In this document: piece after piece, positions 41,739 to 46,990 of the stretch
Layout of the letters: every line of letters begins with the position of its first letter
Position numbering within the stretch: position 1 is the stretch's first letter
Assembly (NCBI RefSeq): GCF_000585375.1
Contig: NZ_KK073874.1
Span: 7,098,894-7,162,893, forward strand
Source: Cryptosporangium arvum DSM 44712
GTDB taxonomy: Bacteria; Actinomycetota; Actinomycetes; Mycobacteriales; Cryptosporangiaceae
Length of the DNA stretch: 64,000 nucleotides
Reading direction: 5' to 3'
The notes under the pieces: generated by a model
The model's database searches: none
What the model was told of the DNA's origin: nothing
The model's input: only the letters and a program-made list of their open reading frames with translations
Made by a program: the position numbers and the translations under genes

Positions 41739-41925
41739 GCCGCCCCCTTGGATCCGGTGCCCGGTCGCATCCGGTGTACGAAGGGGCCGGGTCGCTCACC
41801 GTGTCGCCAGGTCCCCATCCGCTTCGCGTGGCCTGGCGCCGGGGAAGGTGCGCCAGGAGTATCGCCAAGCGGCTGGAGACCTCACGTCACGGGACTCGGC
41901 CGGCCCCGAACGAAACTCGCCGCGG

Positions 41926-42657: not shown

Positions 42658-45525
42658 CTAGACGACGACCGTCACGATCCGGCCCGGCACGACGATCAGC
42701 TTGCGGGGCTCCTTGCCGCCCAGGAAGGCGGCGACCTTGGGCTCGGCCAGCGCGGCGGCGCCCACCGCGGCCTGATCGGCGTCGGCCGGAACCGTGATGC
42801 GGCCCCGCACCTTGCCGTTGACCTGCACCGGGTATTCGATCTCGGCCGCGGTCAGCAGAGCCGGGTCGGCGACCGGGAACGAGTGGTAGGTCAGCGTCTC
42901 CTCGTGGCCCAGCTTCGCCCACAGCTCCTCGGCCAGGTGCGGGGCGAACGGCGCGACCATCAGCACCATCGGCTCGACGACCTCGCGCGGCGTCGCGGCC
43001 TTCCCGGAGTAGACCGACGTCACCTGGTTGGTCAGCTCGATCAGCTTCGAGACCGCGGTGTTGGTGCGCAGCCCTTCCAGGTCGCCCCGGACGCCGTCGA
43101 TGGTCCGGTGCAGCAGCCGCTTGGTCGCGTCGTCGGCCTCCTCGTCGCCGACCCGCAGCTCACCGGTCTCCTCGTCGACCGCGGTGCGCCACAGCCGCTG
43201 CAGGAACCGCATCGAGCCGACGACCGCCCGGGTCTCCCACGGACGCGAGACGTCCAGCGGGCCCATCGACATCTCGTACACCCGGAACGTGTCGGCGCCG
43301 TACTCGGCGCACATGTCGTCGGGAGTGACGACGTTCTTCAGGGATTTGCCCATCTTGCCGTACTCGCGGTTCACCGGCTGGCCGTGCCAGGTGTAGGTGC
43401 CGTCCTGCTCCGCCACCTCGTCGGCGGGCACGTAGGCGCCCCGCGCGTCGGTGTAGGCGAACGCCTGGATGTAGCCCTGGTTGTACAGGCGGCCGAACGG
43501 CTCGGACGAGCGCAGGTGCCCGCGGTCGAACAGCACCTTGTGCCAGAACCGCGCGTACAGCAGGTGCAGCACGGCGTGCTCGACGCCGCCGATGTACAGA
43601 TCGACGCCGCCGGCGGGCTTCGCCGCCGTCGGGCCCATCCAGTACTGCTCGTTCGCCGGGTCGACGAACTCGGCCTCGTCGGACGGGTCCAGGTAACGCA
43701 GCTCGTACCAGCACGAGCCGGCCCACTGCGGCATCGTGTTGGTCTCGCGACGGTACTGCTTCGGGCCGTCGCCCAGGTCCAGCGTGACGTTCACCCACTC
43801 GTCGGCCCGCGCCAGCGGCGGCTCCGGGTCGGTGTCGGCGTCATCGGGGTCGAACGTCCGCGGCGCGTAGTCGTCGATCTCCGGCAGGACGATCGGCAGC
43901 ATCGACTCCGGCACCGCGACCGGCAGCCCGTCCTCGTCGTACAGCACCGGGAACGGCTCGCCCCAGTAGCGCTGCCGGCTGAACAGCCAGTCGCGCAGCT
44001 TGTACGTCGTGGTGGCCTCGCCGTGGTTGTTCTCGACCAGCCAGTCGATGATCCGGGCCTTGGCCTCGGCGACACCCAGCCCGTCCAGGAAGCCGGAGTT
44101 GATCGCCGGACCGTCACCGGTGAACGCCTTGCCGTCGAAGCCCTCGCTGGGCTGCACGGTGCGGACGATCGGCAGGTCGAAGACCTCGGCGAACTCCCAG
44201 TCACGCTCGTCCTGGCCGGGCACCGCCATGATCGCGCCGGTGCCGTAGCCGGTCAGCACGTAGTCGGCGACGAACACCGGGACCTTCGCGCCGTTGACCG
44301 GGTTGACCGCGTAGGAGCCGGTGAAGACACCGGTCTTCTTGCGCGCGTCGGCGGACCGCTCGATGTCGGACTTGGCCGCGGCCTGGGCCTGGTAGGCGGC
44401 GACGGCGGTGGAGGGGTCGTCAGCGGTCTTCCACGCCGGCGGCACGTCGGCCGGCCATTCGTCCGGGACGATCGCGTCCAGCAGTGGGTGCTCCGGCGCC
44501 ACGACCAGGTAGGTGGCACCGAACACGGTGTCGGGCCGGGTGGTGAACACCCGGATGGGCGCGTTCGGGGCACTGTGCCGCTTCTTGGGCGCGGCGTCGC
44601 TTATCGCGAAGTCGATGTACGCACCGGTCGAGCGTCCGATCCAGTTGCGCTGCATGACCTTTATCGACTCCGGCCAGTCCACCTGGTCCAGGTCGTCGGC
44701 CAGCCGGTCGGCGTAGGCGGTGATGCGCATCATCCACTGCCGCAGCCGACGCTTGAAGACCGGGAAGTTGCCACGCTCGGAGCGCCCGTCGGCGGTGACC
44801 TCCTCGTTGGCCAGCACGGTGCCCAGGCCGGGACACCAGTTGACCGGCGCCTCGGACAGATAGGCCAGGCGATGCGAGTCGATCAGCCGGCGCTGGCCCG
44901 TGCGGTCCAGTTCGTCCCAGGCCTTGCCGGGGGCCGTCCGGGCGCCGGCGGCGAACTCCGCCTCCAGCTCCTCGATCGGACGGGCCTTGCCGGCCTCGGC
45001 GTCGTACCAGGAGTTGTAGATCTGCAGGAAGATCCACTGCGTCCAGCGGTAGTAGGTGACGTCGGTGGTGGCCAGCTGGCGGCGGCTGTCGTGGCCGAAC
45101 CCCAGCCGACGCAGCTGCGCCTTGTACCGGTCGATGTTCTCGTCGGTGGTTTTGCGGGGGTGAGTGCCGGTCTGCACCGCGTACTGCTCGGCGGGCAGGC
45201 CGAACGCGTCGAAACCCATCGGGTGCAGGACGTTGTAGCCCAGCATCCGGTGGTAGCGCGCGTAGACGTCGGTGCCGATGTACCCCAGCGGGTGGCCGAC
45301 GTGCAGCCCGGCGCCGGACGGGTACGGGAACATGTCCATGACGAACATCGGCTTGCCGCCGTCGTTGTGCCAACCCGGCGACGGAGCGGCCAGCGGACCG
45401 GAGGGGTTCGGCGAGTGGAACGTGCCGTCGGCCTCCCAGCGGTCCTGCCAGCGCTCCTCGATCGCTGCGGCCAGCGCTGCCGTATAGCGGTGCGCGGGCG
45501 CGTCGGTGGAGTTCTGCTCGCTCAT
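42658..45525 (-). CDS. leuS: Leucyl-tRNA synthetase
   Basis: 955 residues, class Ia synthetase. HIGH-type motif in [15 protein letters not shown], editing (CP1) domain with [19 protein letters not shown] and [19 protein letters not shown], and the KMSKS box as KMGKS in [14 protein letters not shown]-terminal anticodon and tail regions end in [15 protein letters not shown]. Charges tRNA-Leu and edits mischarged products. Translation start ATG has AAGGA before it. The 240-nt leader holds a leader peptide and a terminator, see there. Confidence 0.98.
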
Positions 45526-45573
45526 CGTGGGATTCCTTGACTGAAGGCTGGATAGTGGCGGGCTCGAGACACG

Positions 45574-45598
45574 AAAAAACCCCTCGCTATGGAGGGGT
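45574..45598 (-). terminator. Intrinsic terminator/attenuator in the leuS leader
   Basis: On the minus strand a 7-bp stem ACCCCTC/GAGGGGT with a 6-nt loop is followed directly by six Ts. It lies 49 nt upstream of the leuS ATG and downstream of the leader peptide, so it would stop leuS transcription unless opened. Confidence 0.8.
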
Positions 45599-45600
45599 CG

Positions 45601-45685
45601 CCGTGCTGACCGATCGCGTGGTGGCTACTCCGTCCGGCTGCTGTTCAGGCAGCACGACCGACGGATCAGCCGCGCGTCAGCACGG
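45601..45685 (-). promoter_or_regulatory. Nested stems of the leuS attenuator
   Basis: Arms 45676-45685 and 45601-45610 are perfect 10-nt complements (CCGTGCTGAC / GTCAGCACGG). Inside are 45660-45671 with 45623-45634 (9 of 12 paired) and an apical 5-bp stem 45639-45643 with 45650-45654. The upstream arm covers the last codons and stop of the leader peptide, so ribosome position would decide whether this long stem forms. GGGTGCC-type sequence within the peptide gene can also pair with the 5' side of the terminator. Confidence 0.6.
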
Positions 45686-45754
45686 CACGATAAGGAGCCC
45701 GGCACCCTTGCGGCAGGGACCGGCCACGGGGGTTGGAACCTCGGCGCTCACCAT
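45677..45754 (-). CDS. leuS leader peptide with Leu-Leu-Ile-Val codons
   Basis: 25 residues: begins MVSAEVPTPVAG and ends GLLIVPC followed by TGA. The ATG has no Shine-Dalgarno but a TATAGT box 6 nt before it, so it is probably translated leaderless from the transcript's first nucleotide. CTC-CTT-ATC-GTG codons near its end would stall ribosomes when Leu-tRNA is short. Its stop overlaps the first arm of the downstream stem. Known ribosome-mediated attenuators of branched-chain genes use the same layout; the assignment here is inference from sequence. Confidence 0.65.
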   Translation of the reverse strand: MVSAEVPTPVAGPCRKGAGLLIVPC

Positions 45755-45985
45755 GGGTGCACTATACCGCTCCGCCGATTCGGCCGCCGACGCGTATAAC
45801 GCGAGAGACGAAACGGCACACACTGGTACGGATGTGTTGAGCAATGCCGATCGCCTGGCGGTCGGGCCGGATCCTGGAACAATAGTCGCCGGGCCTCGCG
45901 CTTCCGCGCCGCCTTTCGCAGGCCTTTCGCACGTGCAGGTAAATATGTGGATCCGCGCTGGGCGGATCGAGGAAGAGGGCAGTCG
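45755..45985. other. Divergent gap between leuS leader and moxR-type gene
   Basis: Contains the leuS leader promoter on the minus strand. On the plus strand, GAGGAAGAGGG near 45968-45979 is the ribosome site for the MoxR gene; its promoter is not obvious (an AACAATAGT element near 45880 is a candidate). No other gene. Confidence 0.6.
45761..45766 (-). promoter_or_regulatory. -10 box of the leuS leader transcript
   Basis: TATAGT, close to consensus, ends 6 nt before the leader-peptide ATG. No clear -35 is visible. Confidence 0.6.
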
Positions 45986-46990
45986 GTGACGACGCACGGC
46001 ACGCTGGAGAACTACGGTCCCCCGGTCGACCTTGGGAGCGTTCGACTCGTCACCGACCGCATCGTCGCGAACGTCGAGCGGGTGATCGAGGGCAAGACGT
46101 CGACGATCTCGCTGGCGGTCGCCGTTCTCCTCGCCGAAGGCCACCTCTTGATCGAGGACGTGCCCGGCGTCGGAAAGACGAAGCTCGCGAAGGCGCTCGC
46201 GCGGTCGATCGACGGATCGGTACGGCGGATCCAGTTCACCCCTGACCTGCTGCCCTCCGACGTCACCGGGGTGAGCATCTACAACCCGGAGAACCGGTCG
46301 TTCGAGTTCAAGCCCGGGCCGGTGTTCGCGAACCTGGTCGTCGGGGACGAGATCAACCGGGCCTCGCCGCACGCGCAGTCCGCGCTGCTCGAGTGCATGG
46401 AAGAGCGTCAGGTGACGGTCGACGGCATCACCTATCCGCTGCAGAACCCGTTCATGGTGGTCGCCACCCAGAACCCGACGCAGATGGCGGGCACCTACCC
46501 GCTGCCCGAGGCGCAGCGCGACCGGTTCACCGCGCGCCTGGCGATGGGGTACCCCGACCGCCGCTCCGAGCTCGCGATGCTCGACGGCCACGGCGAGCAG
46601 GACCCGCTCGACGGCCTGCGGCCGGTGTGCGACGGCAACGAGATCCGCCTGCTGATCGAGGCGGTCCGGCGGGTGCACGTGGCCGAGCCGGTCAAGTGGT
46701 ACGTCATCGACCTGGTGAGCGCCACCCGCAACAACCCCGACCTGCGGCTCGGTGCGAGCCCGCGGGCCAGCCTGCAGCTGCTGCGCACGGCCCGCGCGTT
46801 CGCCGCGGTCGAGGGCCGGGACTACGTGCTCCCCGACGACATCCAACGGCTGGCGGCGCCGGTGCTCACCCACCGCCTGATCCCCACCGAAGAGGCCGTG
46901 TTCAACCGGCGGACGGCGGACGTGATCCTGGCCGATCTCGTCGCCCGGGTGCCGGTGCCGGACGCCCGGGGTGGGCGTCGGACGCGGTGA
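45986..46990 (+). CDS. MoxR-family AAA+ ATPase
   Basis: 334 residues from GTG 45986 (GAGGAAGAGGG just upstream; an ATG-in-frame start at 45947 is less likely). Walker A EDVPGVGKTKLAKALA, Walker B LVVGDEINRASP, sensor MVVATQNPTQMAGTYPLPEAQRDRF and SPRASLQLLRTARAFA are typical of the MoxR proper subgroup. These act as chaperone-like ATPases with DUF58/VWA partners. Overlaps the DUF58 gene by 4 nt; the three-gene operon moxR-DUF58-TgpA is widely conserved in actinobacteria. Confidence 0.95.
   Translation: MTTHGTLENYGPPVDLGSVRLVTDRIVANVERVIEGKTSTISLAVAVLLAEGHLLIEDVPGVGKTKLAKALARSIDGSVRRIQFTPDLLPSDVTGVSIYNPENRSFEFKPGPVFANLVVGDEINRASPHAQSALLECMEERQVTVDGITYPLQNPFMVVATQNPTQMAGTYPLPEAQRDRFTARLAMGYPDRRSELAMLDGHGEQDPLDGLRPVCDGNEIRLLIEAVRRVHVAEPVKWYVIDLVSATRNNPDLRLGASPRASLQLLRTARAFAAVEGRDYVLPDDIQRLAAPVLTHRLIPTEEAVFNRRTADVILADLVARVPVPDARGGRRTR

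Follow-up and report, generated by a model that had tools for sequence, protein, structure and literature searches.

The leuS gene of Cryptosporangium arvum DSM 44712 lies on the minus strand of the window, i.e., the whole stretch of 64,000 nucleotides that was analyzed (contig NZ_KK073874.1, positions 7,098,894 to 7,162,893), and is preceded by a short leader. In window positions, leader and gene comprise the following features:

45761..45766, minus strand: -10 box TATAGT of the leader promoter, as read from the sequence
45677..45754, minus strand: leader ORF of 25 codons, MVSAEVPTPVAGPCRKGAGLLIVPC-stop, with its start codon at the expected transcription start
45692..45697, minus strand: control codons CTC CTT (Leu-Leu), as read from the sequence
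45676..45686, minus strand: arm A of stem P1, GCCGTGCTGAC, overlapping the leader stop codon
45600..45610, minus strand: arm B of P1, GTCAGCACGGC, its final base in contact with the terminator hairpin
45578..45599, minus strand: terminator hairpin GACCCCTC-CATAGC-GAGGGGTT, 8 bp including one G-U, with a 6-nt loop
45574..45579, minus strand: U-tract of six Ts, the first two being able to close the base of the stem
45534..45538, minus strand: Shine-Dalgarno-like AAGGA of leuS, 8 nt 5' of the ATG
42658..45525, minus strand: leuS, leucyl-tRNA synthetase, 955 aa (TIGR00396, 903.3 bits)

The TATAGT box is spaced by 6 nt from the leader ATG at 45754, and the leader peptide is probably leaderless, as judged by its start codon coinciding with the expected transcription start. 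The TGA stop codon of the leader ORF (45679-45677) lies inside arm A. P1 consists of arm A (45686-45676) and arm B (45610-45600), which form 11 bp, all perfect, around a loop of 65 nt; zero bases separate P1 from the terminator. The last T of the U-tract lies 48 nt from the leuS ATG (45525). A sequence-only reading of this DNA had listed TATAGT, 6 nt, an ATG, a 25-codon ORF with its stop in a stem arm, and a six-T terminator before leuS, all of which are confirmed by reading the minus strand. It had given the stem as a perfect one of 10 bp and the terminator as 49 nt before leuS; the perfection of the stem and the position of the terminator hold, and both lengths are corrected by the values above.

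The terminator is the sole terminator-like site within 44500-46500 on both strands (shuffles: mean 0.6). The fold of the leader beats 200 of 200 shuffles (z -4.05), and the 28-nt terminator by itself reaches -13.2 kcal/mol (z -3.86). The chance control comprises 405 kb of the same genome—the window and 20 further stretches—and features 43 terminator-like sites on both strands. A stem of at least 9 bp abuts 8 of these 43 sites, and the full element occurs at 2 of them: the leuS and the ilvB leaders. The reading of the leuS leader as a T-box was dropped because scanning the window against Rfam at gathering scores gives no T-box match and returns mraW RNA alone. This RNA (RF01746, window 41789-41898, minus strand, 62.7 bits) is expected upstream of a cell-division cluster.

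Conservation was assessed in 163 leuS upstream regions, 80 being loci from named genomes (the best 80 of at least 584) and 83 being from the order, where 83 of 101 genomes have a leuS match above threshold, the window's own among them; one of the 163 regions (L158) is just 112 bases long. A script that demanded a terminator, P1, an ORF that contains Leu and ends close to P1, and a -10 box at 4-8 nt from the leader start finds the whole design in 85 of the 163 regions. Within the spacing so demanded, the TAnnnT box ends 6 nt from the leader start in 56 elements, 7 nt in 28, and 8 nt in 1. A -35 box is not seen, a TTGAC-like motif being present in 1 of the 85. The leader has a length of 11-13 codons in 74 of 85 elements. 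In 69 of 85, Leu codons occupy the precise positions -14, -11, and -8 relative to arm A; the stop codon begins at +7 of arm A in 77 of 85, and in 6 further elements, it begins 2-3 nt upstream of P1. Neither regularity was a criterion of the script in that form. The window carries its Leu codons at -11 and -8 only. P1 and the terminator both covary across leuS leaders: in 50 of the 85 sequences, P1 (10 pairs counted) is paired in 94.5% of cells with two-sided changes at 6 of 10 pairs, and the main stem of the terminator is paired in 91.4% of cells with two-sided changes at 4 of 7 pairs and 82.0% at the lowest pair. Six slid controls of the whole structure reach 41-57%.

The sequence-only reading had taken the region for a leader-peptide attenuator of leuS, probably leaderless, and this is supported by the conserved ORF, its Leu codons, the stem, the terminator, and the compensatory changes: a short ORF with Leu codons and compensatory stem changes are present upstream of leuS in relatives (the 85 of 163 regions). 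Of the Leu-Leu-Ile-Val signal that it had proposed, the Leu codons are conserved, whereas the Ile-Val pair is confined to 2 of the 85 leaders, those of the window and one sister species, and to a second sister species (L088) whose terminator the script missed. Sensing of Ile or Val is rejected since the Ile-Val codons are not conserved. Three Leu codons are found in the sister species and two in the window. In L088, the terminator loop carries an insertion of ~70 nt with both arms retained.

Covariance model R2 was trained on 38 sequences with the five genomes of family f1—which we take to be the Cryptosporangiaceae—excluded, and gives the window a score of 60.1 bits (E 4.6e-13). As judged by this score of a model trained without the window's family, the window's element is a divergent member of the actinobacterial leuS attenuator family (leuL2 type). 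R2 matches 57 of the 80 loci from named genomes (again the best 80 of at least 584) and 61 of the 83 from the order, its 38 training sequences included; this total of 118 of 163 regions stands against 85 by the script, which missed elements detected by R2. All five f1 genomes searched carry the element. Model R1, whose training set includes the window, finds one good copy in the genome of C. arvum (E 9.2e-12; next match 2.39) and matches 89 of 197 genomes of a class draw and 19 of 198 of a phylum draw, the two draws overlapping. The loci fetched with R1 number 104, namely the other 102 matches of the two draws and 2 chance matches of the own genome, and LeuS is found by tblastn at 80 of them. 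The remaining 24 comprise 9 loci of citramalate synthase, 7 of acetolactate synthase, 1 of 2-isopropylmalate synthase, 1 related locus (L207), 3 at contig ends, 1 tRNA gene, and the 2 chance matches, with proteins checked against NCBIfam at four loci (L202, L212, L214, and L219) and judged by eye at the others. As judged by these comparisons, the element before leuS is widespread and covarying with a fixed geometry.

The same leader stands before two LeuS lineages that are ~40% identical (L201, L203, L205, L208, L220, and others), as if the enzyme had been replaced while the leader stayed, or the leader had spread.

The codon at -8 is CTT in 80 of the 85 elements and CTC in 3. CTT makes up 57.9% of the leader Leu codons vs 0.3% of those in leuS (67 loci with leuS sequence), and the leader of the window uses CTC and CTT only. 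The own genome carries one tRNA-Leu gene each for GAG, CAG, TAG, CAA, and TAA, as typed in the ten of 67 tRNA matches that are longer than 80 nt. In standard decoding, tRNA-Leu(GAG) reads CTC and CTT, and the CAG and TAG isoacceptors read CTG. CTC and CTT account for 39% of Leu codons in the own-genome sample; therefore, tRNA-Leu(GAG) would meet the largest demand per gene. Selective-charging theory, as set out in the available part of PMC1183508, expects a high-demand isoacceptor to lose its charge early, and from codon demand this would be tRNA-Leu(GAG).

The element is likely to attenuate leuS transcription in a ribosome-mediated way, sensing the charging of tRNA-Leu(GAG), with P1 blocking the terminator sterically. 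RNA polymerase would start at or beside the leader ATG, the presumed start site in the window, and a ribosome would translate the leaderless peptide behind it. As long as tRNA-Leu(GAG) is charged, the ribosome would reach the stop codon in arm A and cover this arm; with P1 prevented, the terminator would fold and transcription would end before leuS. When tRNA-Leu(GAG) is uncharged, the ribosome would wait at the CTC/CTT codons, arm A would be left mostly free, and P1 could form. Fixed to the base of the hairpin, P1 may keep the last terminator pairs open at the RNA exit channel, and the blocked terminator would permit read-through into leuS and its presumed induction. A leuS with CTG only, being read by other tRNAs, would stay translatable in the very shortage that induces it. 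The steric step is the least certain part of this mechanism. A precedent is the block exerted by a ribosome beside a terminator in the available part of PMC4824070: termination falls from ~90% to <10% once a ribosome occupies a stop codon located 5 bp ahead of the terminator, and termination reportedly requires the final 2-3 bp of the hairpin to close. A result that counts against the mechanism is given in the accessible part of PMC1262725, where altered candidate regulatory codons in the ilvB leader of S. coelicolor are without effect.

The 85 elements were folded with a ribosome footprint of 13 nt that begins at the first base of the codon in the A site; according to the available text of PMC4824070, the ribosome covers ~10 nt past the A site. 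With the ribosome at the first, second, and last Leu codon, P1 is present in 85, 79, and 68 of the 85 minimum-energy folds, and at the last Leu codon, at least 6 P1 pairs are left in just 51. A ribosome at the stop codon abolishes P1 in all 85 folds, and P1 forms in 84 of 85 without a ribosome. Of the 85 folds, 82 contain the terminator with the ribosome at the first Leu codon, 81 at the second, 81 at the last, 79 at the stop codon, and 79 without a ribosome. In the window, 9 and 6 of the 11 P1 pairs remain with the ribosome at its two Leu codons, and the terminator is retained at the first. Of the proposal in the sequence-only reading that stalling changes the fold and spares the terminator, the first half agrees with the folds, P1 switching between 85 of 85 with the ribosome stalled at the first Leu codon and 0 of 85 with the ribosome at the stop; the second half does not, the stalled ribosome leaving the terminator in place in the window and in 82 of 85 folds. 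Because P1 forms without a ribosome, an untranslated leader would form it too, and the model predicts read-through without translation. In trp-type leaders, unlike in the leuS model, no read-through is expected without translation.

Of the features by which an attenuator is judged, a predicted leader ORF with matching amino-acid codons is conserved in 85 of 163 regions, and an intrinsic terminator is located between leader and leuS. An alternative structure sharing bases with the terminator is lacking, since P1 and terminator coexist in the predicted folds; exclusion would, hence, have to be steric or kinetic. As modeled, the leuS leader probably works like a ribosome-mediated attenuator with other means of exclusion. 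The unpaired stretch between P1 and terminator in the predicted folds measures 0 nt in 62 of 85, 1 nt in 6, 2 nt in 12, 3 nt in 3, and 5 nt in 2; together with the 82 of 85 folds in which the terminator persists despite a ribosome at the first Leu codon, this argues against classical attenuation, in which P1 and terminator would compete for a few bases or by folding order and not sterically. Consensus folds with the ribosome-covered or the terminator columns masked likewise contain no conserved pairing beyond P1 and terminator. Classical attenuation is on the unlikely side but keeps some weight through some UAG-stop ilvB leaders, where the terminator base could share 1-2 nt with the end of P1, and through the available part of PMC1262725 (Seliverstov 2005), which names the two leuS hairpins antiterminator and terminator. 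An overlapping antiterminator was discarded as a candidate, none being conserved in masked consensus folds or single folds. Two pairings drawn by hand, one joining the Leu codons to the 3' arm of the terminator and one joining arm B to the terminator loop, were dropped as well; the latter is missing from the window and from L086. For the preferred attenuator with a steric block by P1, the abutting helix would be a simple and testable route to blocking an intrinsic terminator without base sharing.

Classical attenuators of leuS were predicted in 2005 for S. avermitilis and S. coelicolor (PMC1262725, available part). The accessible part of PMC8079986 (2021) describes leuL2, MRAVRLLLSEPR, before leuS of S. 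lividans TK24, as a leaderless transcript with a hairpin and a run of Us downstream. The sequence-only reading had considered such an attenuator novel, which these two reports contradict: a leaderless leader peptide for leuS is already known, and what is unexpected here is the codon exclusion described below. The Streptomyces attenuator shares with the window the gene, the Leu-run leader, the pair of hairpins with a terminator, and probably the leaderless start (mapped in S. lividans), and the MRAVRLLLSEPR peptide also occurs in Streptomyces loci of the leuS set, which the covariance models match. The window differs from leuL2 by its 25 codons vs 12, by two Leu codons followed by Ile-Val vs three Leu codons, and by its 65-nt P1 loop. 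Enteric leu, trp, and his attenuators feature control codons in a translated leader as well, and the position of the ribosome decides on the terminator; their antiterminators, however, share bases with the terminator, whereas P1 of leuS abuts it and shares none. The biased choice of control codons in enteric leaders, as treated in the available part of PMC1183508, resembles that of the leuS leader.

The LEU element of actinobacterial leuA also features a Leu-run leader but, according to the accessible text of PMC1262725, is proposed to form a pseudoknot and to pair with the Shine-Dalgarno box in place of using a terminator. Upstream of leuA in the own genome (216470-218227, minus strand; L293), there is a candidate leader, VRMVGLLLLCRGEAS, whose Leu codons are CTC CTC CTT CTC, i.e., CTC/CTT only. 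Actinobacterial ilvB leaders are similar in that the own-genome one has P1 beside a terminator, and differ by mixed Ile, Leu, and Val control codons; mutually exclusive folds are given for M. tuberculosis ilvB1 in the available part of PMC13236596. The own-genome ilvB leader (L275/L292, 5' of ilvB at 7318670-7320445, minus strand) encodes VRSTRILVLS with a GTG start. A candidate attenuator lies 5' of the citramalate synthase gene cimA of the own genome (7293843-7295432, minus strand; L283) and comprises an ORF MTGFCITS-stop, a P1-like stem, and a terminator. The gap between P1 and terminator is 1 in ilvB and 0 in cimA. Further citramalate synthase leaders with P1 beside the terminator, e.g., MFYGLLIIGRRAG and MPSQVVIIPGRAG of family f31, were found by the leuS model (L202, L204, L206, L212, L264, L267, L269, L271, and L272). 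Among the matches listed for open PMC papers, no paper on a citramalate synthase (cimA) leader attenuator was found. Of 18 folded loci of ilvB, cimA, leuA, and L207, 16 yield a fold, with a gap of 0 in 12, 1 in 2, and 3 in 2.

All 68 leucines of leuS in the window are encoded by CTG, and CTC/CTT by 0 of 68 (chance 1.5e-15). Across 215 genes of the own genome (those of 244 with at least 20 Leu codons, called by reading-frame composition and not by annotation), the share of CTC+CTT has a mean of 0.398 and an sd of 0.101, leuS being the lowest at 0. Second lowest is leuA at 0.093 (TIGR00970, 861 bits), and ilvB is sixth lowest at 0.19 (TIGR00118). CTC/CTT depletion is not a trait of every branched-chain gene: cimA (0.467), a putative leuB (0.424), and a putative ilvC (0.469) are undepleted. 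The codon shift in leuS is strong for Leu alone (p 1.7e-10; next Ile with 4.3e-4 and Gly with 0.019), the other amino acids being near the genome average with Ile and Gly slightly off.

The exclusion was followed across species in 130 leuS genes, i.e., 110 and 20 added from the class draw mainly without an R1 match, with a leader being counted at an R2 match of E up to 0.01. The median CTC+CTT share is 0.014 with leader (90 loci) vs 0.290 without (40 loci), and a share of at most 0.10 is found in 80 of 90 vs 4 of 40; the p-values of this comparison ignore kinship, which was corrected for only informally. Relative to flanking genes, the background in relatives being the genes next to leuS only, the median ratio is 0.031 with leader (81 loci) vs 0.683 without (30 loci). 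A strict element is present at 67 loci, of which 63 have a share of at most 0.10 and 35 a share of zero. A leuS tree of 110 rows, made by a quick method, contains 8 changes of the leader label, at least 6 of them according to starred branches. Leader-bearing Jiangella (0.014) and Occultella (0.015) lie in a mainly leader-less group with 0.10-0.55 around them, Pseudonocardia has 0.07 vs 0.29 in Actinomycetospora, and six rows of Mycobacteriaceae/Nocardiaceae without leader have 0.16-0.36, with an adjoining seventh row (L114) at ~0.03. One pair is reversed (L101 with leader at 0.24 vs L105 without at 0.145), and another differs little (L031 with leader at 0.055, L010 without at 0.079).

CTC/CTT exclusion in leuS, thus, goes with the presence of the leader, and the exceptions can be named. 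High shares occur with leaders of the strict test in L095 (0.27) and L101 (0.24), with a weak leader in L013 (0.30), and in five leader-bearing loci of the added sample (families f43 and f48; 0.20-0.36, flanks 0.44-0.51), whose terminators or Leu runs look eroded as judged after the shares were known. Low shares without a detected leader occur in L368 (0.023), L114 (0.028), L010 (0.079), and L072 (0.10). A poor U-tract as the cause of relaxed exclusion, examined only after the shares were known, fits several loci of f43, f48, and L013 and is contradicted by L025, which has a low share of 0.01 despite its poor U-tract. In the second LeuS type behind the leader (~40% identical), exclusion is weaker than in the window's type, with a mean share of 0.158 and 1 of 33 partial genes at zero, these values being without flanking control.

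Ordinary translational selection on a well-expressed gene, which would leave the CTG-only leuS unrelated to its leader, is improbable as the source of this pattern. The shares of at most 0.10 in four leuS genes without a detected leader, and the ratio of 0.683 that marks leader-less leuS genes as somewhat poor in CTC/CTT vs their neighbors, would suit it; the ratio of 0.031 with leader, the confinement of the strong shift to Leu, and the ordinary shares of rpoB (0.398), rpoC (0.435), valS (0.36), ileS (0.289), and metG (0.327) in the own genome speak against it. That the 5' region is inert, with a promoter, a weak terminator, and an untranslated ORF, is highly improbable given that Leu codons, stop position, P1, and spacing are conserved in 85 of 163 regions, that P1 and terminator covary, and that a leaderless leader transcript is reported for S. 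lividans in the available part of PMC8079986.

Beyond the attenuator of leuS, it is tentatively proposed, at somewhat less than an even chance, that the leucine attenuators of Actinobacteria make up a single codon-partition system with their target genes. The leaders would use the codons that are read by tRNA-Leu(GAG), which is likely to be the first isoacceptor to become uncharged, with leuS fully and leuA nearly purged of them and the trait gained or lost with the leader; an antiterminator abutting the terminator helix would be a layout common to the leuS, ilvB, cimA, and leuA leaders. Neither the codon exclusion nor the abutting layout was recognized as described in open PMC papers, among the matches listed. 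If the codon partition holds true, it would be a very clean natural case of selective-charging theory, in which the leader codons reveal the sensed tRNA and the regulated enzyme is immune to the shortage that it must cure.
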